From Sphingomonas gilva (GTDB lineage: Bacteria; Pseudomonadota; Alphaproteobacteria; Sphingomonadales; Sphingomonadaceae), in the NCBI RefSeq assembly GCF_003515075.1, contig NZ_QWLV01000006.1, positions 1-64,000 on the forward strand: a stretch of 64,000 nt of DNA, read 5' to 3'. A program made the position numbers and the translations under genes. Positions 27,338-64,000 of this stretch are shown piece after piece (the first letter of the stretch is position 1; every line of letters starts with the position of its first letter). Below the pieces are notes generated by a model that was given only the letters and a program-made list of their open reading frames with translations, made no database searches and was not told the DNA's origin.

Positions 27338-27468
27338 CTCTGCGGCCGGATCATTGGGGGGTGCGCGCCATATAGGGAGCCGAAGGGGGTTTGTCGCCCT
27401 TTTGTCATCATTCGTGGAAAATGCCTGATGTTCAGTTGGGTAGGATATGTCGTGAACAGCCCGCCCCC

Positions 27469-51685: not shown

Positions 51686-53262
51686 GCGGTGAGCCTTTCG
51701 ATGACATGCGATTGCAGCGCCGCGGGCGAAACCGCCGTGGCGCGGGTGATTGCGGCCGAATCGCGCACGAAGGCGGTGAAATCGGCGGGAGACAGCGGGC
51801 GCGAGAAGAGGAAGCCCTGGAACAGCCCGCAGCCGTGGCGGCGGAGCCATTCATACTCCTCGCGGCGCTCGACTCCCTCGGCGAGCACGCGGATGCCAAG
51901 GCCGCGTCCGAGCGCGATCAGGCTCTGGCAGATCGCCTGGCTGTCGCGCCGGGTATCGACCTCGCTGACGAATTCGCGGTCGATCTTGATCTTGTCGAAG
52001 GCGAGCGTGCGCAGATAGCTGAGGCTGGAATAGCCGGTGCCGAAATCGTCGATGGCGATACGCACCCCCATCGCGCGCAGCCGTTCGAACAGGCTGCGGA
52101 TGTGCGCGACGTCGCCGGCGGCCACGGTTTCGGTCAGCTCGATCTCCAGGGCGGCGGGCGGAAGGCGATGGCGCGCGAGCGTGCGCTCGATCATCTTGGG
52201 CAGGTCGTCGCGGTGGAGCTGCTGGGCGGAAAGGTTGACCGCGACGAACAGATCGCCCTTGCCGAGCGTGCGCCAGCCGCGCGCCTCGCGGCAGGCGGCG
52301 TTCATCGCCCACATGCCGATCTCCTCGGCAAGGCCCGCAGCCTCGACGATCGGGATGAACTCGGTCGGCTGCACCGGGCCGAACTCGGGATGCTGCCAGC
52401 GCATCAGCGCCTCGGCGCCGCAGACGCGCTGGCGCACGCCGTCGATCAGCGGCTGATAGACCAGCGCGAGCTGGCCGCGCGTCACGGCCTGGCGCAGATC
52501 CTGTTCGAGCACGAAGGCGCGGCGGGCCTGCGCTTCCGGGTCGGCCTCGGCCTCGGCCATGACGACGCCGCCGGTGGCGAGCGACGCGATCGCGCGTGTG
52601 ACGATCAGCTCGGCGGTGTCCTCGGCGGCGGCGCGGTGCGCCAGCCCGAGGCGCAGATCGGGGATGATCGTGCTGCCGTCATGCTCGATCGCGTCGGCGA
52701 GCGCGTAACGGATCGCGTCGAGCTCGGCGCGCGCGGTGTCGCCGTCGCATTCGCGGCCGAACCAGATGGCGATGCGCGCGCGGTCGATCTGCCCGACCGG
52801 ACGGCGCGGGCCGATCATGCGTCGGACGCGGTCGGCCAGCGTGCCGAGCGCGCGGTCGGCGAGCGCGCAATCGAAGCCGTTCAACCGGTCGAAATCGACG
52901 AACTCGACCACCCCGAGCGTGCCGCCCGACGGGCCGGCGGCGAGATCGGCGCGCATCGCCGCGAGCAGCGGCTCGCGCGTCGCGAGGCCCGTGGTCTGGT
53001 GGCGGTTCGCCTTGCGGGGGTCGGGCGTGGCCTCGGGATCGGCGGTGAAGCGCGAACGGGCCGAGGCGCGGTCGCGCAGCCAGGCGCCGGCCAGCGCCAG
53101 TGCCGCGGCGATCAGCGATGCGGCGGTGGCGACGGGATGGTCGCCCGGGCTGAGCATGACGGGGACGGGGATGGCGAGGCCGGCGCAGATGCACGTCATC
53201 GCGGCGTGGCGCTCGACCCACCCCGACAGACCGGTGCGACCCTGGTTTCTCGCTTTCGCCAC
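51682..53262 (-). CDS. EAL phosphodiesterase with degenerate GGDEF domain
   Basis: Predicted cyclic-di-GMP phosphodiesterase. Two TM helices (about 20-38 and 44-62) anchor it. A GGDEF-like domain (about 95-235) lacks the catalytic motif (F-G-R-E-C in its place), so it may only bind nucleotide. The EAL domain (about 265-510) is intact: G-A-E-A-L-M-R-W, N-L-S-A-Q-Q-L, E-L-T-E, D-D-F-G-T-G-Y-S-S-L, K-I-D-R-E-F-V, A-E-G-V-E. It has 526 residues. Its stop overlaps the LysM gene start. A short conserved element lies 40 bases upstream (53302-53319). Confidence 0.92.
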   Translation of the reverse strand: MAKARNQGRTGLSGWVERHAAMTCICAGLAIPVPVMLSPGDHPVATAASLIAAALALAGAWLRDRASARSRFTADPEATPDPRKANRHQTTGLATREPLLAAMRADLAAGPSGGTLGVVEFVDFDRLNGFDCALADRALGTLADRVRRMIGPRRPVGQIDRARIAIWFGRECDGDTARAELDAIRYALADAIEHDGSTIIPDLRLGLAHRAAAEDTAELIVTRAIASLATGGVVMAEAEADPEAQARRAFVLEQDLRQAVTRGQLALVYQPLIDGVRQRVCGAEALMRWQHPEFGPVQPTEFIPIVEAAGLAEEIGMWAMNAACREARGWRTLGKGDLFVAVNLSAQQLHRDDLPKMIERTLARHRLPPAALEIELTETVAAGDVAHIRSLFERLRAMGVRIAIDDFGTGYSSLSYLRTLAFDKIKIDREFVSEVDTRRDSQAICQSLIALGRGLGIRVLAEGVERREEYEWLRRHGCGLFQGFLFSRPLSPADFTAFVRDSAAITRATAVSPAALQSHVIERLTA

Positions 53263-53301
53263 GCGCTACTCCGTTGGCACGCGGGCGGTTTAGGCGAACA
53301 T

Positions 53302-53319
53302 ATGCGTATTTTCGGTTAA
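53302..53319 (-). promoter_or_regulatory. Element E, copy 2
   Basis: ATGCGTATTTTCGGTTAA, read on the minus strand as TTAACCGAAAATACGCAT, lies 40 bases before the EAL start. Its 14-nt core is shared with 11749-11762. The TTAACC end looks like a CtrA half-site, but only one half is present. Confidence 0.4.
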
Positions 53320-53350
53320 GCGCGTGAAACCTGCGGATTTTCGCGGATCG

Positions 53351-53806
53351 TTACGCCTGCGGCCGCGCCATCATCAGGGCGGCGCGCGATGTTTTCACGA
53401 CGATCTCGTCGCGCTGGTTGAGGCCGATATGCTCGAAGGTGACGATGCCCTGGCCCGGGCGCGAGGCGCTGGGGCGGAGCGCCTTCACCTCGGTCTCGGC
53501 GCGGATCGTGTCGCCGTGGAAGACGGGCTTGGGAAAGCTCGTCTCGCTCATGCCGAGATTGGCGATGGTGGTGCCGAGCGTGGTGTCCTGCACCGACAGC
53601 CCGATCACCAGCCCGAGCGTGAACAGCGAATTGACCAGCGGCCGGCCGAACTCGGTGGTCGCGGCATAGGCGTGGTCGATATGGATCGCCGCCGGATTAT
53701 AGGTGAGCGAGGAGAACAGCATATTGTCCATCTCGGTCACCGTGCGCCGGATCTCATGGCTGAAGCGCTGGCCCACCAGGAATTCGTCGAACCACAGACC
53801 CGCCAT
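53351..53806 (-). CDS. MaoC-like dehydratase
   Basis: Hot-dog-fold hydratase of the MaoC/(R)-enoyl-CoA hydratase type. F-D-E-F-L-V-G-Q-R-F begins the fold. The catalytic Asp/His-type pair is in N-P-A-A-I-H-I-D-H-A-Y, and F-H-G-D-T-I-R-A-E-T-E-V is diagnostic of mesaconyl-CoA-hydratase-like members. The length of 151 residues is normal. ATG 53806 (M-A-G-L-W-F-D-E) was preferred over the longer frame, which has no motif. The substrate is unknown and no pathway gene is adjacent. Confidence 0.9.
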   Translation of the reverse strand: MAGLWFDEFLVGQRFSHEIRRTVTEMDNMLFSSLTYNPAAIHIDHAYAATTEFGRPLVNSLFTLGLVIGLSVQDTTLGTTIANLGMSETSFPKPVFHGDTIRAETEVKALRPSASRPGQGIVTFEHIGLNQRDEIVVKTSRAALMMARPQA

Positions 53807-53869
53807 CACCCAAACTCCGCCATCCCGACCCCTGCCATCCATACAGCGCGGGGCGGCCTTGTGAACCGG

Positions 53870-53887
53870 CGTCACACAAGCGTCACA
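53870..53887 (+). promoter_or_regulatory. Pho-box-like direct repeats before the lipoprotein gene
   Basis: CGTCACA (53870-53876), four bases, CGTCACA (53881-53887): two identical 7-bp units with an 11-bp period, the geometry of PhoB sites (consensus CTGTCAT-N4-CTGTCAT). They lie 142 bases before the lipoprotein ATG and 63 bases upstream of the divergent MaoC start. Confidence 0.6.
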
Positions 53888-54029
53888 TCAGAGTCCCGTG
53901 ATTGACCCACCGCTCGCATCAGACCGTCAACCACCGCTCCTAGGGCCGCTCGCAGAGGGGCGGGCCTGAAGGGGGCTCGATTCGGCCACGCGTCCGTCCG
54001 CTCGCACCTTTTCTGAGCGGAGTACGGTG

Positions 54030-55562
54030 ATGACCTCTAACAAGTTCAAGACGATCCTGGCGCTGTCTGCGGCGAGCGCGGCGCTGGCGTCGTGCGGCGC
54101 GGACGAAATCGCCTCGCCCGGCGAAGGCGTGATCGTCGTGCCCGGACCGACCCCGGGGCCGACGCCTGGGCCAACCCCTGGACCGACGCCCGGACCAACG
54201 CCGGTGCCGACCAGCTGCACTGTGGGCACCGACGGCGGGACGATCGAGAGCGTCAACGGCACACGCCGCGTCTGCACGATCACCGGCCGCATCTCCTCAA
54301 ACCTCGCGATCCCGCGTGTCGAGGGCGTGCTGTACCAGATCTCCGGCCGCGTCGATGTCGGCACGGACGTGGGCGGTGATGGCGGTTCGGGCGCGGCGGT
54401 GACGCTGACGATCGATCCGGGCGTGACGTTGTTCGCGGCGTCGGGTGTCGACTTCCTGGTGGTCAACCGCGGATCGAAGCTGATCGCCGAGGGCACTGCG
54501 AGCCGGCCGATCATCTTTACCGCGCGCGCCAACGTGCTCGGCACGGCGAGCGACACCTCGGACGGGTTGTGGGGCGGCGTGGTGATGCTGGGCCGTGCGC
54601 CGATCAGCAACTGCATCGGCGCGGTGCCGGGCGGGTCGGTCGATTGCCAGGCGCAGATCGAGGGCACGACCAACGCGCTCTATGGCGGCGCGACCGCAAA
54701 CGACGACAGCGGCAGCCTGCGTTACGTCCAGATCCGCTATTCGGGCGTGGTCATCGGCGCGGGCAACGAGCTGCAGGGCCTGACCACCGGCGGCGTCGGA
54801 TCGGGAACCGATTTCGACTATGTCCAGGTCCACAACAGCTCCGACGACGGCGTCGAGTTCTTCGGCGGTCGGCATAATTTCCGCCACCTGATCGTGACCG
54901 GCGCGTCGGACGACAGCGTCGATACCGATGTCGGCTACAAGGGCAACATCCAGTATCTGATCGTTGCGCAGCGCACCGGCGCGGGCGACCGCCTGATGGA
55001 GGTCGACTCGGCTGGCGGCGAGGACACCACGCCGCGGCAGAACATCCGCGTCTCCAACGCGACCTTCCTGCACAATTCGACGGTGGGCGCGAACAGCTTC
55101 CTGATCCATGGCGGCGCCGACTACGGCCTGTACAACTCGGTGGTGGTCGCGCGCGCGGGCGTCGAGTGCTTCGACATCGACGGCGCGGGCACGATGCAGA
55201 CGAGCGGCACCGACGAAGCCGGCCCGCCCGCATTCAACTCGGTGGTGGTGCAGTGCGGTTCGACCCCGATCGACGATGACGGCAACATCACGCTCGCGGC
55301 CGTCCAGTCGCTGTTCACCAGCGGATCGAACAACAATCTCAGCTACACCGCTTCGCTGACCGGCGGCTTCGTAAACGGCGCGACCGAGACCTCCGTGCCT
55401 TATTTCGACGTCGCCCCGGTGAGCAGCTTCTTCGTCAACGCCGGGCATATCGGCGCGGTCAAGGACAGCGCCGACACCTGGTATCGCGGCTGGACCTGCG
55501 ATTCCACGACCGCTGACTTCGGCAGCGACTCCAACTGCATCGGCCTGCCCTCCTACGCCTGA
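54030..55562 (+). CDS. Putative secreted lipoprotein with beta-helix-like body
   Basis: 510-residue protein with lipoprotein signal M-T-S-N-K-F-K-T-I-L to L-A-S-C (lipid Cys22). It has five exact GPTP repeats at 39-58, then a Cys-containing body rich in short repeated beta segments: G-V-L-Y-Q-I-S-G-R-V, L-I-A-E-G-T-A-S-R-P-I-I-F-T-A, L-R-Y-V-Q-I-R-Y-S-G, V-E-F-F-G-G-R-H-N-F-R-H-L. These suggest a right-handed beta-helix. It is encoded just before a TonB receptor and a T2SS cluster, so it is a candidate T2SS substrate or surface partner of the receptor. The family is not recognised with certainty. GTG 54027 immediately precedes ATG 54030. Confidence 0.8.
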   Translation: MTSNKFKTILALSAASAALASCGADEIASPGEGVIVVPGPTPGPTPGPTPGPTPGPTPVPTSCTVGTDGGTIESVNGTRRVCTITGRISSNLAIPRVEGVLYQISGRVDVGTDVGGDGGSGAAVTLTIDPGVTLFAASGVDFLVVNRGSKLIAEGTASRPIIFTARANVLGTASDTSDGLWGGVVMLGRAPISNCIGAVPGGSVDCQAQIEGTTNALYGGATANDDSGSLRYVQIRYSGVVIGAGNELQGLTTGGVGSGTDFDYVQVHNSSDDGVEFFGGRHNFRHLIVTGASDDSVDTDVGYKGNIQYLIVAQRTGAGDRLMEVDSAGGEDTTPRQNIRVSNATFLHNSTVGANSFLIHGGADYGLYNSVVVARAGVECFDIDGAGTMQTSGTDEAGPPAFNSVVVQCGSTPIDDDGNITLAAVQSLFTSGSNNNLSYTASLTGGFVNGATETSVPYFDVAPVSSFFVNAGHIGAVKDSADTWYRGWTCDSTTADFGSDSNCIGLPSYA

Positions 55563-55580
55563 CGCGTTCGGGTGGGCTTG

Positions 55581-55611
55581 GGGGCGGCGGACCAAAGGGG
55601 GCCGCCGCCCC
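55581..55611 (+). terminator. Intercistronic hairpin between lipoprotein and TonB receptor
   Basis: Perfect 10-bp stem GGGGCGGCGG (55581-55590) and CCGCCGCCCC (55602-55611) with an 11-nt loop. No T-run follows (GTCATTTCAT), so it is more likely an mRNA-stabilising or attenuating hairpin than a full terminator. Confidence 0.6.
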
Positions 55612-55642
55612 GTCATTTCATACAGATATCAAGGGTTCCGCG

Positions 55643-58372
55643 ATGAACACGCCGCTGACGCTGGGCACGCTTCTGCTACTATCAACCGCGCTGACGTCGC
55701 CCGCCTGGGGCCAGACTCCGCCGCCTTCGAGCAGCACGCCCGGAGGCACGACAGCGGTGCAGGAGCTGCCGGGCCAGCCTGCCGCCGAAGTGCCGGCGCA
55801 AGACGGCGGGCAGGACGAGCTGGAGGTCTCGATCCCCGGCGGCGGCTCAGACCAACCCGACATCGTCGTGCGCGGCCGCTACATTCCCGATGTGGTGCGA
55901 TCGACGCCGGAGATCGTCGCGGTGCTTTCCAGCGCCGACATCGCGCGCACGGGCGAAGGCGACATCGCCGGCGCGCTGCAGCGGGTGACCGGACTTTCGG
56001 TCGTCGGCAACGGCTTCGTCTATGTCCGCGGCCTGGGCGACCGCTATTCGCTGGCGCTGCTCAACGGATCGCCGCTGCCGAGCCCGGAGCCGCTCAAGCG
56101 CGTCGTTCCGCTCGACATCTTTCCGACCAGTGTGCTGGGCTCGGCGCTGGTGCAGAAAAGCTATTCGGCGAACTATCCCGGCGAATTCGGCGGCGGAGTG
56201 ATCAACCTGACGACTAAGGCGATCCCCACCGAGAGCTTCCTGACGATCGGCGGCGGTGTCGGCGGCGACAGCGAGACGACGTTCGAGCTGGGCTACACCC
56301 ACTACGGCAGCGACACCGACTGGCTGGGCTATGACGACGGCACACGCAGCCCGCAGGGCGCGTTCGAGCGCGCGCTGGAGAGCGGCATGTCGATCACGCC
56401 GGGCAACTTCACCACCGAAGAGCTGCAAGCAGTCACCGCCAGCCTGGCCAATTCCCCGACCACGGTCGCGCAGACCAATCGCAACATTCCGGCCAACTTC
56501 TCCACCGATATCAGCGCCGGCACCGCGATGGACATCGGCGACGACGCGCGCGTCGGCGTGATCGCGGCCGCGGGCTTCAGCAACAGCTGGCGCACGCGCG
56601 ACGCGATCCAGCAAGTGACCGGCGGGTTCAGCGGCGACGAGCTCAATCCCGACGTCGATTTCCGATCGGTGCGGACCGACAATCGCATCACGTTGAATGG
56701 CCTGCTGGGCGTCGGCATCGAGTTCGGCGAGCAGACGATCCGCTGGACCAACCTCTATATTCACGACACGCTGAAGCAGACGCGCATAGGGCTGGGCATC
56801 GACGGCTTGTCAGTGGACGACACCCGCCAAGTGGCGCTGCAGAATACTGCCTGGTACGAACGCCAGCTGATCGACACGCAGCTGGTCGGCGAATTCGAGT
56901 TCGGCGATCTCGGCGTCGACGTCCGCGGCACTTACGCCAATTCGCAGCGCGAGGCGCCCTATGAGCGGAGCTTCAGCTATGTGTTCGACGAAACCGCGGG
57001 CGACTTCGTCAACAACCTGGAAGGGCCGGGCCAGTCGGCGACGGTCTCGTTCAGCGATTTGAACGAGGATGTCTGGGCCGGCGGCGTCGACCTGACCTAC
57101 AAGTTCGCGCCGCTCGCGATGTCGCTCAGCGCGGGCTATGCCTACAGCGACACTGAGCGCACCTCGGTGCGGCGCGACTTCCGCTACCTGACCGACGGCG
57201 ATCTGGGCCTGGCGGTGGCGCAGCAGCGGCCCGACTATCTGCTGTCGGACTTCAACGTCTATACCTACAACATCCTGCTCAATGAGATTTCTGGGCAGGC
57301 GGGCAACGCTGCCTATGACGCCGGTCTGCGTGTCCATGCCGGCTATGCCCAGTTGGAGGCCGATTTCGGCAGCGGCGTCAGCGCCACAGCGGGCGTACGC
57401 TATGAGGATGGCCGCCAGTTCGTCACCCCGGTCGACCTGCTCGGCGCGGGCGTCGGCGGGATCGAGCCGACGCTGATAGAGAATGATTACTGGCTGCCCG
57501 CGGCGACAATCACCTGGAACTTCGCCGAGGACATGCAGCTGCGGCTCAATGCGTCGAAGACGATCGCCCGGCCGCAATTCCGCGAACTCGCCTTTCAGGT
57601 CTATCAGGACACCGAATCCGATCGGCAGTTCTTCGGCAATCCTTTCCTGGTCGACAGCGAGCTGTTCAACGCCGAGGCGCGTTACGAATGGTATTTCGGG
57701 CGCGGTGAGCGGCTGAGCCTCGCCGGCTTCTACAAGAAGATCGACCGGCCGATCGAGGCGTTCGCCTTCCGCCAGTCAAGCTCGCTGCAGACCAGCTTCG
57801 CCAACGCGCCGCAGGCCGATCTATACGGCGCCGAGCTGGAGGTGGTGAAATATGTGCCGCTCGACAGCATGGGCGGCGACTTCTTCGCGCCCCGGCGGCT
57901 CGTGCTGATCGGCAACTATACCTACAGCAAGTCCGAGCTGAAGGTGGGCGAGGGCGACGAGGTGATCTTCTCCTCCGGCCAGGTGTTCGCGGCGTCCAAC
58001 CTGTTCCGCGACGGCGCGCCGCTCACCGGCCAGTCCGAGCACCTCGCCAATCTGCAGATCGGGCTGGAGAACACCGACCGGGTGTCGCAGCAGACCTTCC
58101 TCCTCACCTATGCAAGCGAGCGGGTGACCAACCGCGGGCCGTTCGGCAACCCGCAGGAGCCCGACATCATCGAACGGCCGGGCCTGCGGCTGGACTTCGT
58201 TGCACGCGAGGAGGTGCCGGCGTTCGGCACGACGTTGGGCTTCAAGTTCGAGGTGCGCAACATCACCGGCGAGGACTATGAGGAGTTCCAGGAGGCGGGC
58301 AGCTCGCGCATCGACGTCAACACCTATGACGTCGGAACGAGCGTGGCGCTTGGGGTCGAGGTCAAGTTCTGA
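55643..58372 (+). CDS. TonB-dependent receptor (909 residues)
   Basis: Large outer-membrane TonB-dependent transporter. The signal peptide ends near A-W-G-Q (23). A Pro/Gly-rich stretch leads to the TonB-box-like D-I-V-V-R-G at 73-78. The plug domain carries L-G-D-R-Y-S-L-A-L-L-N-G and Y-P-G-E-F-G-G-G-V-I-N-L-T-T-K. The barrel ends G-V-E-V-K-F with terminal Phe. It belongs to the group with conserved V-R-G-L-G-D-R-Y, distinct from siderophore receptors such as the one at 0.6 kb. It lies 80 bases after the lipoprotein and before gspC; a nutrient released under phosphate limitation is one possible ligand. Confidence 0.92.
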   Translation: MNTPLTLGTLLLLSTALTSPAWGQTPPPSSSTPGGTTAVQELPGQPAAEVPAQDGGQDELEVSIPGGGSDQPDIVVRGRYIPDVVRSTPEIVAVLSSADIARTGEGDIAGALQRVTGLSVVGNGFVYVRGLGDRYSLALLNGSPLPSPEPLKRVVPLDIFPTSVLGSALVQKSYSANYPGEFGGGVINLTTKAIPTESFLTIGGGVGGDSETTFELGYTHYGSDTDWLGYDDGTRSPQGAFERALESGMSITPGNFTTEELQAVTASLANSPTTVAQTNRNIPANFSTDISAGTAMDIGDDARVGVIAAAGFSNSWRTRDAIQQVTGGFSGDELNPDVDFRSVRTDNRITLNGLLGVGIEFGEQTIRWTNLYIHDTLKQTRIGLGIDGLSVDDTRQVALQNTAWYERQLIDTQLVGEFEFGDLGVDVRGTYANSQREAPYERSFSYVFDETAGDFVNNLEGPGQSATVSFSDLNEDVWAGGVDLTYKFAPLAMSLSAGYAYSDTERTSVRRDFRYLTDGDLGLAVAQQRPDYLLSDFNVYTYNILLNEISGQAGNAAYDAGLRVHAGYAQLEADFGSGVSATAGVRYEDGRQFVTPVDLLGAGVGGIEPTLIENDYWLPAATITWNFAEDMQLRLNASKTIARPQFRELAFQVYQDTESDRQFFGNPFLVDSELFNAEARYEWYFGRGERLSLAGFYKKIDRPIEAFAFRQSSSLQTSFANAPQADLYGAELEVVKYVPLDSMGGDFFAPRRLVLIGNYTYSKSELKVGEGDEVIFSSGQVFAASNLFRDGAPLTGQSEHLANLQIGLENTDRVSQQTFLLTYASERVTNRGPFGNPQEPDIIERPGLRLDFVAREEVPAFGTTLGFKFEVRNITGEDYEEFQEAGSSRIDVNTYDVGTSVALGVEVKF

Positions 58373-58375
58373 GAG

Positions 58376-58404
58376 CGTAACAAAGCCGTCACGCGGACGT
58401 CGCC
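58376..58404 (+). promoter_or_regulatory. Pho-box-like triple repeat before gspC
   Basis: CGTAACA (58376-58382), CGTCACG (58387-58393) and CGTCGCC (58398-58404) are three 7-bp units at 11-bp steps. They lie 62 bases before the gspC ATG, directly after the receptor stop, and match the spacing of the pair at 53870. Confidence 0.6.
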
Positions 58405-58466
58405 GAATCGTCGCGCATCCGCCCTAGGCCGGTCCCCGCAAGAGGGACGGACGGGCGGATTCGCGG

Positions 58467-59258
58467 ATGAGGCTGGAACTGGATGGGCGATTGCGCAGAC
58501 TGGTGCGGCTGGTCAGGCCGATCACGATCTACCGCGCATCCGAGCTGGCGATGATGGCGCTGGTCGCACTGCTGGCGGCGCGGCTGGTGTGGGCGGTGCT
58601 GACGCCGGTGACGCCGATCGGCGACTGGGCGCGTGGACAGATCGTCCAGCCCGCCAACCTGTCGCGCTTCGCCGGCTTCGATCCCTTCTTCCGCAACCAG
58701 CCGGCGGCGGGCGAGGCGGTGGTGACCTCGCTGCAGCTGGTGCTGTTCGGCATCCGCATGAACGAGGCGTCGGGCGGTGGATCGGCGATCATCGAGGTGC
58801 CGGGCGAGGGACAGCAAAGCTTCGCGGTAGGCGACGAGATCATGCCGGGCGTGACGCTGAAGGCGGTCGCCTGGGACCATGTCGTGATCGCGCGCGGAGG
58901 CGCCGACGAGCAGCTCTATGTGGCGCAGGGCGGAAGCGGCGATGCCGCCCCGGCACCCGCCGCCGACATTGCGAGCGCGCCGAGCGTCGCGACCATCGCC
59001 GGGGCGGTGACGGCGACGCCGCGCAGCGAGAACGGCCTCGTCACCGGCGTGACCATCCAGCCGGGCGGGGACGCCGCCGCCTTCGCCGCGACGGGATTGC
59101 AGGCGGGCGACGTGCTGCTGCGGGTCAACGGCGAACGCGTTCGCGCGCTCGAGGACATCGCCACGGCCGTCGCCGCCAATGCCGGCGAGGGTCCGGTCCA
59201 GATGGACATCGAGCGCGGCGGCCAGCGCATCACGATCAGCCGGGAGTTCCAGCCTTGA
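58467..59258 (+). CDS. gspC: Type II secretion protein GspC
   Basis: Inner-membrane link between the T2SS platform and the secretin. The cytosolic N-terminus is short; one TM helix is at about 26-46. The periplasmic HR domain (about 75-155; T-S-L-Q-L-V-L-F-G-I-R-M) binds GspD. A C-terminal PDZ domain (about 180-263; T-G-V-T-I-Q-P-G-G-D, A-G-D-V-L-L-R-V-N-G) follows. The length of 263 residues is normal. Its stop overlaps the gspD TTG start (TTGA), the first of the tightly packed gsp genes. Confidence 0.9.
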   Translation: MRLELDGRLRRLVRLVRPITIYRASELAMMALVALLAARLVWAVLTPVTPIGDWARGQIVQPANLSRFAGFDPFFRNQPAAGEAVVTSLQLVLFGIRMNEASGGGSAIIEVPGEGQQSFAVGDEIMPGVTLKAVAWDHVVIARGGADEQLYVAQGGSGDAAPAPAADIASAPSVATIAGAVTATPRSENGLVTGVTIQPGGDAAAFAATGLQAGDVLLRVNGERVRALEDIATAVAANAGEGPVQMDIERGGQRITISREFQP

Positions 59259-61408
59259 CCCGTTTTCGCGCCGCGTGTCTGGCGCTGATGATCAGTGTCG
59301 CCGCGCCGGTGCCGGCGCAGCAGACGCTCAACGTCCGCGACGCCGACATCCGCGCCTTCATCCAGGATGCCGCGCGCGTGACGGGGCGCACCTTCATCGT
59401 CGACAGCCGTGTGCAGGGGAAGGTTTCGGTCACCACCGATCGCCCCTTGAGCCGTTCCGAATATTTCGAGGTGTTCCTCTCGACGCTGCGCGCCAACGGG
59501 CTCGTCGCGGTGCCGACCACGGCGGGATCGTATCGCATTCAGCCGGCCGATGTCGCGGCGAGCTCGCCCAGCCGTGTGGGCAGTCGCGGCGCGGCGCAGA
59601 ACAGCTTCGTCACCGAGGTGTTCCGCCTGCGATCGATCGACGCGACCAGCGCGGTCGAGACATTGCGGCCGCTGGTCAGCCGTGAGGGATCGGTCACCGC
59701 CAATCGCGGGGCGAACTCGCTGGTGGTGGCGGATTATGCCGACAATATCCGGCGCATTCGGCAGCTTCTGCAGCGGATCGACACCGATGCGGCAGCGACC
59801 ACGCTGGTGCCGCTCACCAACGCCGGCGCCCGGGAGATCGCGACCTCGCTGCAGCAGCTTGTCGGCGGCGGCGAAGGTGGACGGGGCGGCGCGTCGGTGG
59901 TCGCGGTCGACGCCTCCAACGCGATCGCCATTCGTGGCGAGCCTTCGACCGTCGCCAAGCTCGCCGACATGGCACGCGAATTGGATGCGCGGGCGGAAAC
60001 GGGTGCGGAAATCCGGGTCGTGTTCCTTGAACATGCCGATGCCGGGCAGATATTGCCGGTTCTGCAGCAGCTCATCGGTCAGACGCCGACCCAAGCGGTC
60101 GAGACCCTGCAGCCTGTGCGTACCACCGGTGAGGATGGATCGACCACCACGGCAGTGCCGGTACAGCAGCAGACCGTCGCCGCGCCCCAGGCCGCCACGC
60201 CCGGCATCGCGCAGAGCGTCGTCGGGCGCGGGCCGGTGGCGGTGACCCGCTTCGAGGGCGCCAACGCGATCATCATCGCCGGCTCCGCGCAGGCGCAGAA
60301 GCAGCTCGGCAGCCTCGTCCGCCAGCTCGACGTGCGGCGCGAGCAGGTGCTGGTCGAAGCCATCGTCGTCGAGATCTCGGACGTCGCGGCGAAGCGGCTG
60401 GGGGTGCAGTTCCTGCTGGGCGGCACGCCCGACAGCGGCATCCCCTTCGCCATCACCAACTATTCGAACGCCGCACCCAATCTGGCGACGATCGCCGGCG
60501 CCTATGCCGCGCGCGAGCTCGATCAGACCACGACCGTGATCAACGGCGACACCGTGACGACCTCGACCGGATCGGAGCTGTCGAACCAGCTGCAGCAGGC
60601 CGCCGCCGCCTCGATCCTGGGCGCGACCGGCGGCATCGGCGGCTTCGTCACCAATGTCGGCCGCGACGGGCTGTTCGGCGCGATCATCAACGCGGTGAAA
60701 TCGGACAACCAGTCCAACATCCTCTCCACCCCCTGGCTCTATACGCTCGACAACAAGCAGGCGAGCATCCTGGTCGGGCAGGAGATTCCGGTTTCGACAG
60801 GTCAGGCGCTGAGCGGCAATTTCGACAACGCCTTCCGCACCATCCAGCGACAGAATGTCGGCATCCAGCTGGACGTGAAGCCGCAGATCAACGCCGGCGG
60901 CGCGATCAAGCTGTTCCTGCGCCAGGAAGTCAGCTCGATCGCCGGGCCGGTGAGCGACGACTTCCAGGAGCTGATCCTCAACAAGCGCGAGATCGAGACG
61001 ACGATCATCGTCGATGACGGGCAGATCGTCGCGCTGGGCGGGCTGCTCGACGACAATGAGCGGCGGACGCTCGAGAAGATCCCCCTGCTCGGCGACATTC
61101 CGCTCATCGGCAAGCTGTTCCAGTCCTCGTCCAAGCAGCGCGCCAAGACCAACCTGATGGTGTTCATCCGCCCGACGATCGTGCGGTCGGCGGCGGACGC
61201 GCGGCGGATCGCCGAGCAGCGCTACGGCTATGCGCGGGGCCAGCAGCTGCTCGCCCGGCCCGATCGCGAGCCGACGCTGGACGAACTGGTGCGCGATTAC
61301 ATGGGCGCGGCCCCGCCGATCCCGCCCGCGCCGCTGCCGACCGACGCGGTGATCGCGCCGGTATCGCTGCCGCCGTCGAGCGCGCCGCAAGCGGAGCCGG
61401 TCCGATGA
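59255..61408 (+). CDS. gspD: Type II secretion secretin GspD
   Basis: Forms the outer-membrane channel. The signal peptide A-C-L-A-L-M-I-S-V-A-A-P-V-P-A-Q places the start at TTG 59255, overlapping the gspC stop; ATG 59288 would cut the signal. N-terminal N0 domain (Q-T-L-N-V-R-D-A-D-I-R-A-F-I-Q-D-A), N1-N3 repeats including V-E-A-I-V-V-E-I-S-D, then the secretin core with L-S-T-P-W-L-Y-T-L-D-N-K-Q-A and V-P-L-L-G-D-I-P-type I-P-L-L-G-D-I-P-L-I-G-K-L-F-Q. It has 717 residues. A Pro-rich tail ends the protein. Confidence 0.95.
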   Translation: MTRFRAACLALMISVAAPVPAQQTLNVRDADIRAFIQDAARVTGRTFIVDSRVQGKVSVTTDRPLSRSEYFEVFLSTLRANGLVAVPTTAGSYRIQPADVAASSPSRVGSRGAAQNSFVTEVFRLRSIDATSAVETLRPLVSREGSVTANRGANSLVVADYADNIRRIRQLLQRIDTDAAATTLVPLTNAGAREIATSLQQLVGGGEGGRGGASVVAVDASNAIAIRGEPSTVAKLADMARELDARAETGAEIRVVFLEHADAGQILPVLQQLIGQTPTQAVETLQPVRTTGEDGSTTTAVPVQQQTVAAPQAATPGIAQSVVGRGPVAVTRFEGANAIIIAGSAQAQKQLGSLVRQLDVRREQVLVEAIVVEISDVAAKRLGVQFLLGGTPDSGIPFAITNYSNAAPNLATIAGAYAARELDQTTTVINGDTVTTSTGSELSNQLQQAAAASILGATGGIGGFVTNVGRDGLFGAIINAVKSDNQSNILSTPWLYTLDNKQASILVGQEIPVSTGQALSGNFDNAFRTIQRQNVGIQLDVKPQINAGGAIKLFLRQEVSSIAGPVSDDFQELILNKREIETTIIVDDGQIVALGGLLDDNERRTLEKIPLLGDIPLIGKLFQSSSKQRAKTNLMVFIRPTIVRSAADARRIAEQRYGYARGQQLLARPDREPTLDELVRDYMGAAPPIPPAPLPTDAVIAPVSLPPSSAPQAEPVR

Positions 61409-62940
61409 AGATCGCGATGGGGGGAGAACGGGCACTGGTCGCCGCCGAAGAAGCGCCGTTCGCGGCGGTCATCGTCTCGATCCCCTATGCCTATGCGCGC
61501 AAGTTCGGAACCGTCCTGATCGACGCCAGCGAAGGCCGAATCGCGGTGGGTTTCCGCGAAGGCGGCGATCCGCGCGCGCTGCTTGAGGTGCGGCGTGTGC
61601 TGGGGCGGCCGTTCGATGTCGAGATCGTCGATGCCGCTCGGTTCGATGCGCTGTTAAGTGAACGCTATGCGATGGACGGCGAGGCGGCCGCGATGGCGGC
61701 GGGGTCGCTGGGGCTGGGCGACGGGCTGGACCTGATCGCCAGCGACATCCCGACTGCCGAGGACCTGCTGGATTCGGCGGACGATGCCCCCGCGATCCGT
61801 CTGATCAACGGCATCATCGCCGATGCCGCGCGGCAGGGCGTCAGCGACATCCATGTCGAGCCCTATGAAAGCGGCCTCGTCGTCCGCATGCGGATGGACG
61901 GCGTGCTCAAGGAAACGCTGCGCATGCCCGCGCACGTCGCGCCGGTGCTGGTCAGCCGGATCAAGGTGATGGCACGGCTCGACATCGCCGAGCGGCGCGT
62001 GCCGCAGGACGGGCGGATCGGGCTGACATTGGGGGGCAAGGCGCTCGACGTGCGCGTCTCGACCTTGCCCAGCCGCGGCGGCGAGCGGGTGGTGCTGCGC
62101 ATCCTCGACCGCGAGACGGCGGCGATCGGCCTCGATGTGCTGGGCATGGACGAGGCAACGTTGAAGCTGTTCTTCGACGCGCTGTCGGAGCCCAACGGCA
62201 TCATCCTCGTCACCGGGCCGACCGGATCGGGCAAGACGACCACGCTCTATGCCGGCCTGCGCGAGCTCAACGATGGCCGCCGCAATATCCTGACCGTCGA
62301 GGACCCGGTCGAATATGCCGTCGACGGCGTCGGCCAGACCCAGGTCAACGCGAAGGTCGGGCTGACCTTCGCGGCGGGGTTGCGCGCGATCCTGCGGCAG
62401 GACCCCGACGTGGTGATGGTCGGCGAGATCCGCGACCGCGAGACGGCCGAGATCGCGGTGCAGGCTTCGCTCACGGGGCATCTGGTGCTGTCGACCGTCC
62501 ACACCAACGATTCGGTCGGCGCGATCACGCGGATGCGCGACATGAAGATCGAGCCCTTCCTGCTCGCCTCCACGCTGCGCGCAGTGATCGCGCAGCGGCT
62601 GGTGCGGCGGCTGTGCCCCGATTGCCGGCGGCCGGTGCAGGCGACGACCGCGGTCGCGTCGCTGCTGGGGTTCGATCCGGGGACGATCGTCTATGAGCCG
62701 GTCGGCTGTCCCTCATGCGACGGCACCGGCTTCAAGGGCCGGATCGGCGTGTTCGAGGCGATCCGCGTCGACGAGACGATCCGCCGGCTGATCAACGATG
62801 GCGGCGACGAGGCGATCATCGCGCGCCACGCCTTCCTCCATGCGCCCAACCTGGGATCGGCGGCGCGGCGGCTGGTGCGCGGCGGCTTCACCACGCCCGA
62901 GGAGGCGGTGCGCGTGTCGCGCAGCGACCCCGATGGCTGA
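61405..62940 (+). CDS. gspE: Type II secretion ATPase GspE
   Basis: Cytosolic hexameric ATPase driving pseudopilus assembly. The N-terminal N1E/N2E region runs to about 150. Walker A G-P-T-G-S-G-K-T-T is near 272. The Asp box, Walker B (D-P-D-V-V-M-V-G-E-I-R-D) and His box (S-T-V-H-T-N-D-S) follow. The zinc-binding Cys pairs C-P-D-C and C-P-S-C near 405-440 are intact. It has 511 residues. ATG overlaps the gspD stop (ATGA); the gene overlaps gspF by 8 bases. Confidence 0.96.
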   Translation: MKIAMGGERALVAAEEAPFAAVIVSIPYAYARKFGTVLIDASEGRIAVGFREGGDPRALLEVRRVLGRPFDVEIVDAARFDALLSERYAMDGEAAAMAAGSLGLGDGLDLIASDIPTAEDLLDSADDAPAIRLINGIIADAARQGVSDIHVEPYESGLVVRMRMDGVLKETLRMPAHVAPVLVSRIKVMARLDIAERRVPQDGRIGLTLGGKALDVRVSTLPSRGGERVVLRILDRETAAIGLDVLGMDEATLKLFFDALSEPNGIILVTGPTGSGKTTTLYAGLRELNDGRRNILTVEDPVEYAVDGVGQTQVNAKVGLTFAAGLRAILRQDPDVVMVGEIRDRETAEIAVQASLTGHLVLSTVHTNDSVGAITRMRDMKIEPFLLASTLRAVIAQRLVRRLCPDCRRPVQATTAVASLLGFDPGTIVYEPVGCPSCDGTGFKGRIGVFEAIRVDETIRRLINDGGDEAIIARHAFLHAPNLGSAARRLVRGGFTTPEEAVRVSRSDPDG

Positions 62941-64000
62941 GTTCGACTATCTGGCCATCGACCGGGCCGGGCGCGAGCGGACGGGGCGGGTTTCGGCCGA
63001 CGGTCTCGACCGGGCGCGGGGGATTCTGGAGGCGCGGCGGCTCTATGTGCTCAGGCTGGCGCAGGGCGCTGCTTCGCCCTCCGGGCCCTCGCTCGCCGGC
63101 CGGATGCGGTTCCGCCGCGAGCGGCTGTCGGGCAAGCAATTGTCCCTGTTCACCCGCCAGCTGGCCACGCTCGTTGCCGTCTCGCCGCTGGAGGAGGCGC
63201 TGCGCACCATTGCGCGCCAGACCGAAAAGCCGGCCGCGCAGGGCGTGATCGGGCGGGTGCATCTGGGCGTTACCGAAGGGCGGCGGCTGGCGGAGGCGAT
63301 GCGGCGCGAGGAACCGAGCTTTCCGCCGCTCTACCGCGCGATGGTGTCGGCGGGCGAAGCGTCGGGCACGCTGGGGCTGGCGCTGGAGCGGCTGGCGGGG
63401 CTGCTCGAACGCCAAGCGGAGATTCGCGGCAAGGTGCTTTCCGCGCTGGCCTATCCCATCGTGCTGTCGTTCGTCGCCGTCGCCGTGGTCGTCGCGCTGA
63501 TGACCTTCGTCGTCCCCAAGGTGGTGCAGCAGTTCGAGGATGTCGGACAGAGCCTGCCGCTTCTGACGCGTATCGTCATGGGCATTTCGGATGCGCTGGT
63601 GAATTGGTGGTGGGCGATCCTGGTCGGCATCGCCGCGCTCGGTTTTCTTGTCTGGCGGGCGTTGCAGGCGCCCGCGGCGCGGCTTGCGTTCGACCGCTGG
63701 CTGCTCCGCGTGCCGGGGCTTGGCCGCTTGATCCGCGATCTCCACGCCGCGCGGATGGCGCGGACTCTGTCGACGATGGTCGAGAGCCGCCTGCCTTTGG
63801 TCGAAGGTCTCGCGCTGACCGTGCCGACGATCCACAACCGCGCATTGCGCGCCGCGACTGCCGAGACGGTCGAGGCGATCCGCGGCGGCGGCAATCTTTC
63901 CGCCGCTTTCCGCCGATCGGGCCTGTTCCCGCCGCTGCTGGTCTACATGATCGCATCGGGCGAGGCGGCGGGGCAGCTCGACAGGATGCTCGAACGCGCC
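62933..64000 (+). CDS. gspF: Type II secretion inner-membrane protein GspF (partial)
   Basis: Platform protein of the T2SS. It begins M-A-E-F-D-Y-L-A-I-D-R-A-G and shows both T2SSF domains: L-F-T-R-Q-L-A-T-L-V (about 75 on), with helices V-L-S-A-L-A-Y-P-I-V-L-S-F-V-A-V-A-V and W-W-W-A-I-L-V-G-I-A-A-L. The second domain is under way with M-A-R-T-L-S-T-M-V. The window ends after 356 codons; a full GspF is about 400, so roughly 45-50 residues are missing. Further gsp genes should follow. Confidence 0.94.
   Translation, partial: MAEFDYLAIDRAGRERTGRVSADGLDRARGILEARRLYVLRLAQGAASPSGPSLAGRMRFRRERLSGKQLSLFTRQLATLVAVSPLEEALRTIARQTEKPAAQGVIGRVHLGVTEGRRLAEAMRREEPSFPPLYRAMVSAGEASGTLGLALERLAGLLERQAEIRGKVLSALAYPIVLSFVAVAVVVALMTFVVPKVVQQFEDVGQSLPLLTRIVMGISDALVNWWWAILVGIAALGFLVWRALQAPAARLAFDRWLLRVPGLGRLIRDLHAARMARTLSTMVESRLPLVEGLALTVPTIHNRALRAATAETVEAIRGGGNLSAAFRRSGLFPPLLVYMIASGEAAGQLDRMLERA

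Follow-up and report, generated by a model that had tools for sequence, protein, structure and literature searches.

The ElpS-like lipoprotein gene of Sphingomonas gilva, the TonB-dependent receptor gene next to it and the type II secretion system (T2SS) genes that follow very probably constitute one phosphate-scavenging locus, driven by two PhoB-dependent promoters. Each of these promoters carries an array of PhoB-type half-sites, followed at the same distance by the same -10-like element, and the two arrays are the best PhoB-matrix matches of the window, by which we mean the whole stretch of 64,000 nucleotides analyzed, at the beginning of contig 14 of the 3.54 Mb genome.

The gene order in the window is maoC-like (minus strand), ElpS-like lipoprotein, TonB receptor, gspC, gspD, gspE and gspF (Table 1), and on the same contig the series continues past the window with gspH, I, K, L, M and N, after which a prepilin peptidase gene is found on the opposite strand. 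The T2SS genes from gspC onward are thus downstream of the lipoprotein-receptor pair and on the same strand. The Gsp proteins profiled were C, D, E, F, H, I, K, L, M and N; all score above the Pfam cut-offs, and several (C, E and H) miss those of NCBIfam. For the lipoprotein, no Pfam or NCBIfam family matched at E 0.001. It starts with a lipobox, and lipobox-type starts were assigned at 69 of 77 lipoprotein loci by a search pattern that itself requires a lipobox. A sequence relation to Caulobacter crescentus cc0170 is stated for a sphingomonad by Le Blastier et al. (2010; PMC2996285), and for the window protein it is presumed.

Table 1. Features of the lipoprotein-receptor-T2SS locus (positions in the window)
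Feature	Position	Strand	Basis or remark
Pho array before lipoprotein	53870..53931	+	matrix score; in-phase half-sites; orthologues
-10-like CCTAGG, lipoprotein promoter	53939..53944	+	14 bp past start of last in-phase half-site
Leader inverted repeat, diverged copy (GGCCTGA...TTCGGCC)	53963..53987	+	repeat conserved in relatives
ElpS-like lipoprotein	54030..55562	+	lipobox LASC, predicted right-handed beta-helix
TonB-dependent receptor	55643..58372	+	Pfam plug and barrel
Pho array before gspC	58376..58415	+	half-sites at 58376, 58387, 58398, 58409
-10-like CCTAGG, gspC promoter	58423..58428	+	14 bp past start of last half-site
gspC	58467..59258	+	Pfam T2SSC 85.6 bits; NCBIfam 70.7, below cut-off 101.6
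gspD	59255..61408	+	TIGR02517 559.7 bits, cut-off 351.35
gspE	61405..62940	+	Pfam T2SSE 458.1 bits; TIGR02533 624.6 bits, cut-off 630.25
gspF	62933..64000	+	extends past window end; profile match on L126

A preliminary description of this DNA had pointed out two repeats, CGTCACA-N4-CGTCACA at 53870 and CGTAACA-N4-CGTCACG-N4-CGTCGCC at 58376, and had ascribed to them the 11-bp period of PhoB sites. Both repeats are present exactly at these positions and the period is found in both arrays, each promoter having at least two direct GTCAY-type half-sites in this register. In the lipoprotein array the strong half-sites at 53870 and 53881 are followed in phase by weaker ones at 53892, 53903 and 53914, the latter two being poor, and by CGTCAAC at 53925, while the gspC array is extended, in the same register, by a fourth half-site, CGTCGCG.

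Plain pattern counting did not tell these sites from chance. CGTCACA-N4-CGTCACA has its sole zero-mismatch match in the window at 53870, and with up to three mismatches 9 matches were obtained against 5.96 expected, an unremarkable count. Because the plain-string count was near chance, a PhoB half-site matrix was built from the pstS promoters of 18 relatives, all of which were used, with sites chosen partly by eye and the S. gilva genome left out; this matrix and a strict 17-letter pattern (see below) did make the distinction. The array at 53870 scored 17.7 bits and that at 58376 16.2 bits, ranking first and second among the 127,966 positions of both strands, ahead of a third match at 13.5 bits (27392) and a fourth at 9.3. 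Neither array's score was attained on one strand of 2 Mb of order-3 Markov sequence, and when arrays of three or four consecutive half-sites were considered, the gspC array came first and the lipoprotein array second. Both arrays therefore resemble the motif of the pst promoters of the same genus. The third match, 27392-27409 (+), overlaps the longest purF-like frame on the minus strand in its 5' portion, likely before the true start of that gene.

The spacing between the last in-phase half-site and the CCTAGG element is identical at the two promoters (Table 1); the window has three copies of CCTAGG in all. Among relatives, a CTA element at 14 bp is present in 51 of 69 lipoprotein promoters, compared with a distance of 13-15 bp in 3.5% of shuffled leaders. 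With a looser pattern that had no shuffled control, the 14-bp spacing was seen in 21 of 38 gspC promoters linked to the pair and in 6 of 23 others.

Further elements are found in these upstream regions. GANTC (CcrM-type methylation) sites occur within both window promoters, at 53891, 53979, 58405 and 58458, as in the methylation-controlled elpS promoter of Caulobacter, for which a 2016 paper (PMC5172544) describes induction by phosphate starvation and hypomethylated GANTC sites. Between the -10 element and the start codon, the lipoprotein leaders of relatives show an inverted repeat, GRYCGRC...GTCGRYC, whose loop is rich in G. In the alignment of these leaders 97.3% of cells are paired and 3 pairs are changed on both sides, values to be read in the light of a selection pattern which already prescribes a portion of the stem; of the 69 leaders, 24 depart from this pattern, among them that of the window, which was added by hand. 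Across 17 genomes a leader model (R1) gave 9 matches below E 0.01, each at an elpS locus and none of them in the genome of the window. The inverted-repeat hairpin is absent from the fold predicted for the window leader, and Rfam gave no match up to E 1 over 53000-60000. We regard the putative hairpin as a lead only.

The genome encodes the regulator that such arrays call for. Of 31 matches to the PhoB profile, eight are nearly full length and one is above the cut-off (TIGR02154, 332.3 bits; cut-off 296.2). The surrounding cluster reads phoR-pstS-pstC-pstA-pstB-phoU-phoB, pstC and phoB being assigned by profile and the remainder by eye, and the genome's own pstS has a Pho box 109 bp upstream. 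The strict Pho pattern YGTMAY-N5-YGTMAY has 15 matches in the 3.54 Mb, two of them in this locus, and the same pattern reversed, used as control, has 2. Some of the other 13 strict sites adjoin genes for a glycerophosphodiester phosphodiesterase (GDPD) and a NUDIX-PhoU_div protein, the start position of the latter being uncertain; one adjoins a type I phosphodiesterase gene transcribed away from it on the opposite strand, and another, one of two back-to-back sites, a calcineurin-like phosphoesterase gene. At least four of the 13 fall within open frames and may be chance matches.

When related genomes are analyzed, both the gene pair and its promoter site prove to be widespread. A lipoprotein match at E 1e-40 is present in 167 of 201 genomes of the genus, and in 60 genus loci chosen by the lipoprotein the receptor gene directly adjoins it in all 60, as in the window; gspC is within the stretch in 21 of these loci and absent from it in 39. 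A site of at least 12 bits precedes the lipoprotein gene in 58 of the 69 genus loci with an assigned start, in every case at -118 to -190, and a site of at least 9 bits in 65, leaving four without any 9-bit site; on the reverse strand of the same 69 promoters these thresholds are reached in 1 and 5, respectively. Most of the named relatives found through the lipoprotein belong to the Sphingomonadales (Sphingomonas, Sphingopyxis, Sphingobium, Hephaestia, Blastomonas, Erythrobacter). Their lipoprotein site reaches 12 bits at 55 of 75 loci, with a reverse-strand frequency (9/75) that is not negligible, and their gspC site at 35 of 40, with none of 40 on the reverse strand; one locus with gspC upstream of the pair (L244) was retained among the 40. 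Over the 80 named loci the density of sites is 3.04 per kb in the promoter regions, against 0.043 elsewhere on the same strand and 0.066 on the other, an enrichment of about 70-fold at the two promoters. The maximum was 7.4 bits in the gap before the receptor gene (61 loci) and 11.9 bits in 244 coding control windows. Loci without an assignable start or with too little upstream DNA numbered 8 of 77 in the genus set and 5 of 80 in the named set. As the sets of 69 and 80 overlap in eight records and include close relatives and repeats from one genome (L065/L167), the conservation counts are not independent.

Within the genus of the window, the gspC site is patchier. It reaches 12 bits in 12 and 9 bits in 26 of the 38 loci where the T2SS is linked to the pair, the reverse-strand control giving 3 and 7 of 61, respectively. 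T2SS loci without the pair, that is, with none in the sequence stretch examined (only 2,842 bases for L193), have a site of 9 bits in 5 of 23 and of 12 bits in 1 of 23, and the scores of pair-linked loci and these 23 differ with p = 6e-5. Nevertheless, inspection by eye finds a TTCACA/TGTAACA/CCTAGC layout in many of the no-pair loci, and some relatives show no more than one half-site before gspC. Since this layout is common to many loci without the pair, the tie of Pho control to the pair is not clean, and an initial generalization from six loci, that T2SS loci without the pair lack Pho boxes, was dropped. In one genome (G113) a second lipoprotein-receptor copy is found on contig 8 (L031), besides the T2SS-linked copy (L062); the forward-strand site scores 6.4 bits in L031 and 16.2 in L062, and the reverse strand of L031 has a site of 18.4 bits.

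From the observed sites, with their rank, register, -10 spacing and conservation, together with the phoB-pst cluster and the protein families, the following course of events can be proposed. At low phosphate PhoR would phosphorylate PhoB, and PhoB~P would occupy the 11-bp repeats of both arrays (53870 and 58376) and bring RNA polymerase to CCTAGG, which begins 14 bp past the start of the last half-site. The gene for the lipoprotein, a predicted beta-helix at the cell surface, would be transcribed from the first promoter, and gspC with the genes after it from the second. As the receptor gene lacks its own Pho box, its control would come via read-through from the first promoter. The T2SS may export phosphorus-releasing hydrolases as well as a protease that frees the lipoprotein, and the lipoprotein-receptor pair may handle phosphorus-containing surface material. 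The earlier proposal of a single Pho-controlled locus is thereby partly supported: it is confirmed as to the sites themselves, which stand before the lipoprotein gene and before gspC, and needs the qualification just given for the receptor.

Other explanations have to be weighed against two PhoB-dependent promoters. The repeats could be bound by another response regulator of the OmpR/PhoB family that answers a different stress, since the matrix is unable to separate paralogues with alike half-sites and the genome has the further profile matches mentioned above; in Caulobacter, moreover, the elpS promoter is also controlled by MucR and methylation (PMC5172544). On the other hand, the matrix was derived solely from pstS promoters, several of the other strict sites in the genome adjoin phosphorus genes, and Caulobacter elpS is induced by phosphate starvation (PMC2996285) and the Caulobacter T2SS belongs to the PhoB regulon (PMC11208175, 2024), so that we consider a different regulator improbable. 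Ordinary sigma-70 promoters, with GTCAC words occurring by chance and phosphate control absent, are less probable still. The near-chance number of plain string matches, a CCTAGG that can stand alone as a -10-like element and the single half-site before gspC in some relatives would be in line with such promoters; they would hardly account for the first and second rank in the window, scores unmatched in the simulated sequence, the excess of strict matches over the reversed control and the promoter enrichment in the named loci.

A separate question is the relation between the lipoprotein and the machine. The preliminary description implied that the lipoprotein is a T2SS substrate secreted by the adjoining system, and the adjacency of the genes, the alike promoters and the requirement of the T2SS for ElpS release in Caulobacter are consistent with this. 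However, according to Le Blastier et al. (2010; PMC2996285), ElpS is still present on the surface of Caulobacter when the T2SS is missing, and in the genus of the window the pair is often without an adjoining gspC. We judge such a substrate role unlikely, if less so than the two alternatives above. The parallel with Caulobacter holds for gene order, phosphate induction of elpS and membership of the T2SS in the PhoB regulon, and needs one amendment: in Caulobacter the T2SS is required for the release of ElpS, not for its arrival at the surface.

The AlphaFold2 model of the lipoprotein, made with 35 aligned sequences, is a right-handed beta-helix predicted with confidence (pLDDT 85.5, pTM 0.85); the alignment covers 35 of the 77 lipoprotein loci, L084 being excluded for a stop within the aligned range. 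The top VIA-align rows for the model are a phage tailspike (Z 22.6 over 280 residues, 3.3 A) and an alginate epimerase/lyase (Z 21.6). These matches reflect the general right-handed beta-helix of the model and are uninformative on function. Foldseek found no match of the model in the PDB at E <= 0.001, and a sequence search for solved relatives gave a best E of 0.06 for the lipoprotein and nothing at 1e-5 for the receptor. Seven acidic residues (D272, D273, E276, D294, D295, D298 and D300) are invariant in all 35 aligned lipoproteins, which suggests a metal or ligand site.

The genus also contains T2SS loci of another type. GspD is above the cut-off in 190 of 201 genus genomes, and many of them carry a T2SS unlike that of the window, with a GspD that is 33-39% identical over the part compared and a gspE that is upstream and divergent. 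Relatives that have no T2SS next to elpS possess such a different system at another place. In all 20 loci of this second type that were sampled (L145-L164), the region 2.1-2.4 kb before gspD holds a Pho-like site (no reverse-strand control). Its half-sites take the forms GTAAC, GTCAC and GTCAT and it scores between 11.7 and 14.5 bits; in the three loci examined it is within the gap read as gspL/gspG. In 22 of the 39 pair loci without gspC (two stretches being short), all within L040-L083, the receptor gene is followed after 0.2-1.5 kb by an orphan GspE-like gene, which in the three of these loci examined stands behind a convergent gene of 2OG-Fe(II) oxygenase type. All 22 frames are open across the match. 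None of the 22 has the lysine of Walker A or the glutamate of Walker B, in 21 the His-box histidine is replaced by Asp or Glu, and the four cysteines of both CxxC pairs are kept in every one; in the GspE of the second T2SS, Walker A is intact in 20 of 20. With dN/dS values of 0.07 to 0.58 (11 pairs, dS near saturation in several), the orphan GspE is apparently under purifying selection. A Pho-like site of at least 11.4 bits is close upstream of 12 of the 22 (no reverse-strand control), and because starts were assigned mechanically, sites within overlong frames were missed. It is conceivable, somewhat short of an even chance in our estimation, that selection keeps phosphate control and not a particular machine, and that the orphan GspE serves the replacing T2SS as a regulatory, phosphate-induced pseudo-ATPase.

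A search of the titles and abstract openings of the open-licence literature gave no fitting report on an orphan or inactive GspE, nor, the Caulobacter papers aside, on phosphate control of this kind in sphingomonads. What is new here is the sequence-level evidence for both promoters in sphingomonads, by which the Caulobacter observation would extend to many of these bacteria, with the pair and the T2SS wired to phosphate starvation through two like promoters. The locus offers a concrete setting in which to probe the role of an ElpS-type beta-helix lipoprotein and its receptor, and the exports of a phosphate-induced T2SS, and the relatives with a GspE devoid of ATPase motifs beside elpS constitute a natural experiment on machine replacement.

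The PHO box of Escherichia coli consists of direct repeats of GTCAY-type half-sites at 11 bp, with the -10 element just downstream. In comparison, the half-sites in the window are CGTCACA-like, and the last in-phase one begins 14 bp before CCTAGG. The Hxc T2SS of Pseudomonas aeruginosa is under PhoB control; we know of no ElpS-type pair beside it. This T2SS exports LapA, a phosphatase studied in phosphate-depleted medium.

The closest counterpart is the Caulobacter locus, elpS (cc0170, CCNA_00169)-cc0171-gspC-N, described by Le Blastier et al. (2010; PMC2996285), where the prepilin peptidase gene comes after gspN on the opposite strand. The idea of a locus under joint phosphate control is correct in substance, yet established there, and the same paper already showed a similar arrangement in 'Sphingomonas alaskensis'. 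There the cc0171 receptor gene is reported as constitutive (data not shown), gspE and gspL mRNA rise merely 1.7-fold in poor medium, GspL protein is similar in both media, and the term "Pho box" is absent from the main text. The two systems share a lipoprotein gene, a TonB receptor gene, gspC onward and an opposite-strand prepilin peptidase gene, with phosphate control in Caulobacter; in contrast, the sphingomonads show two separate Pho arrays, known from sequence, with a common 14-bp/CCTAGG layout.
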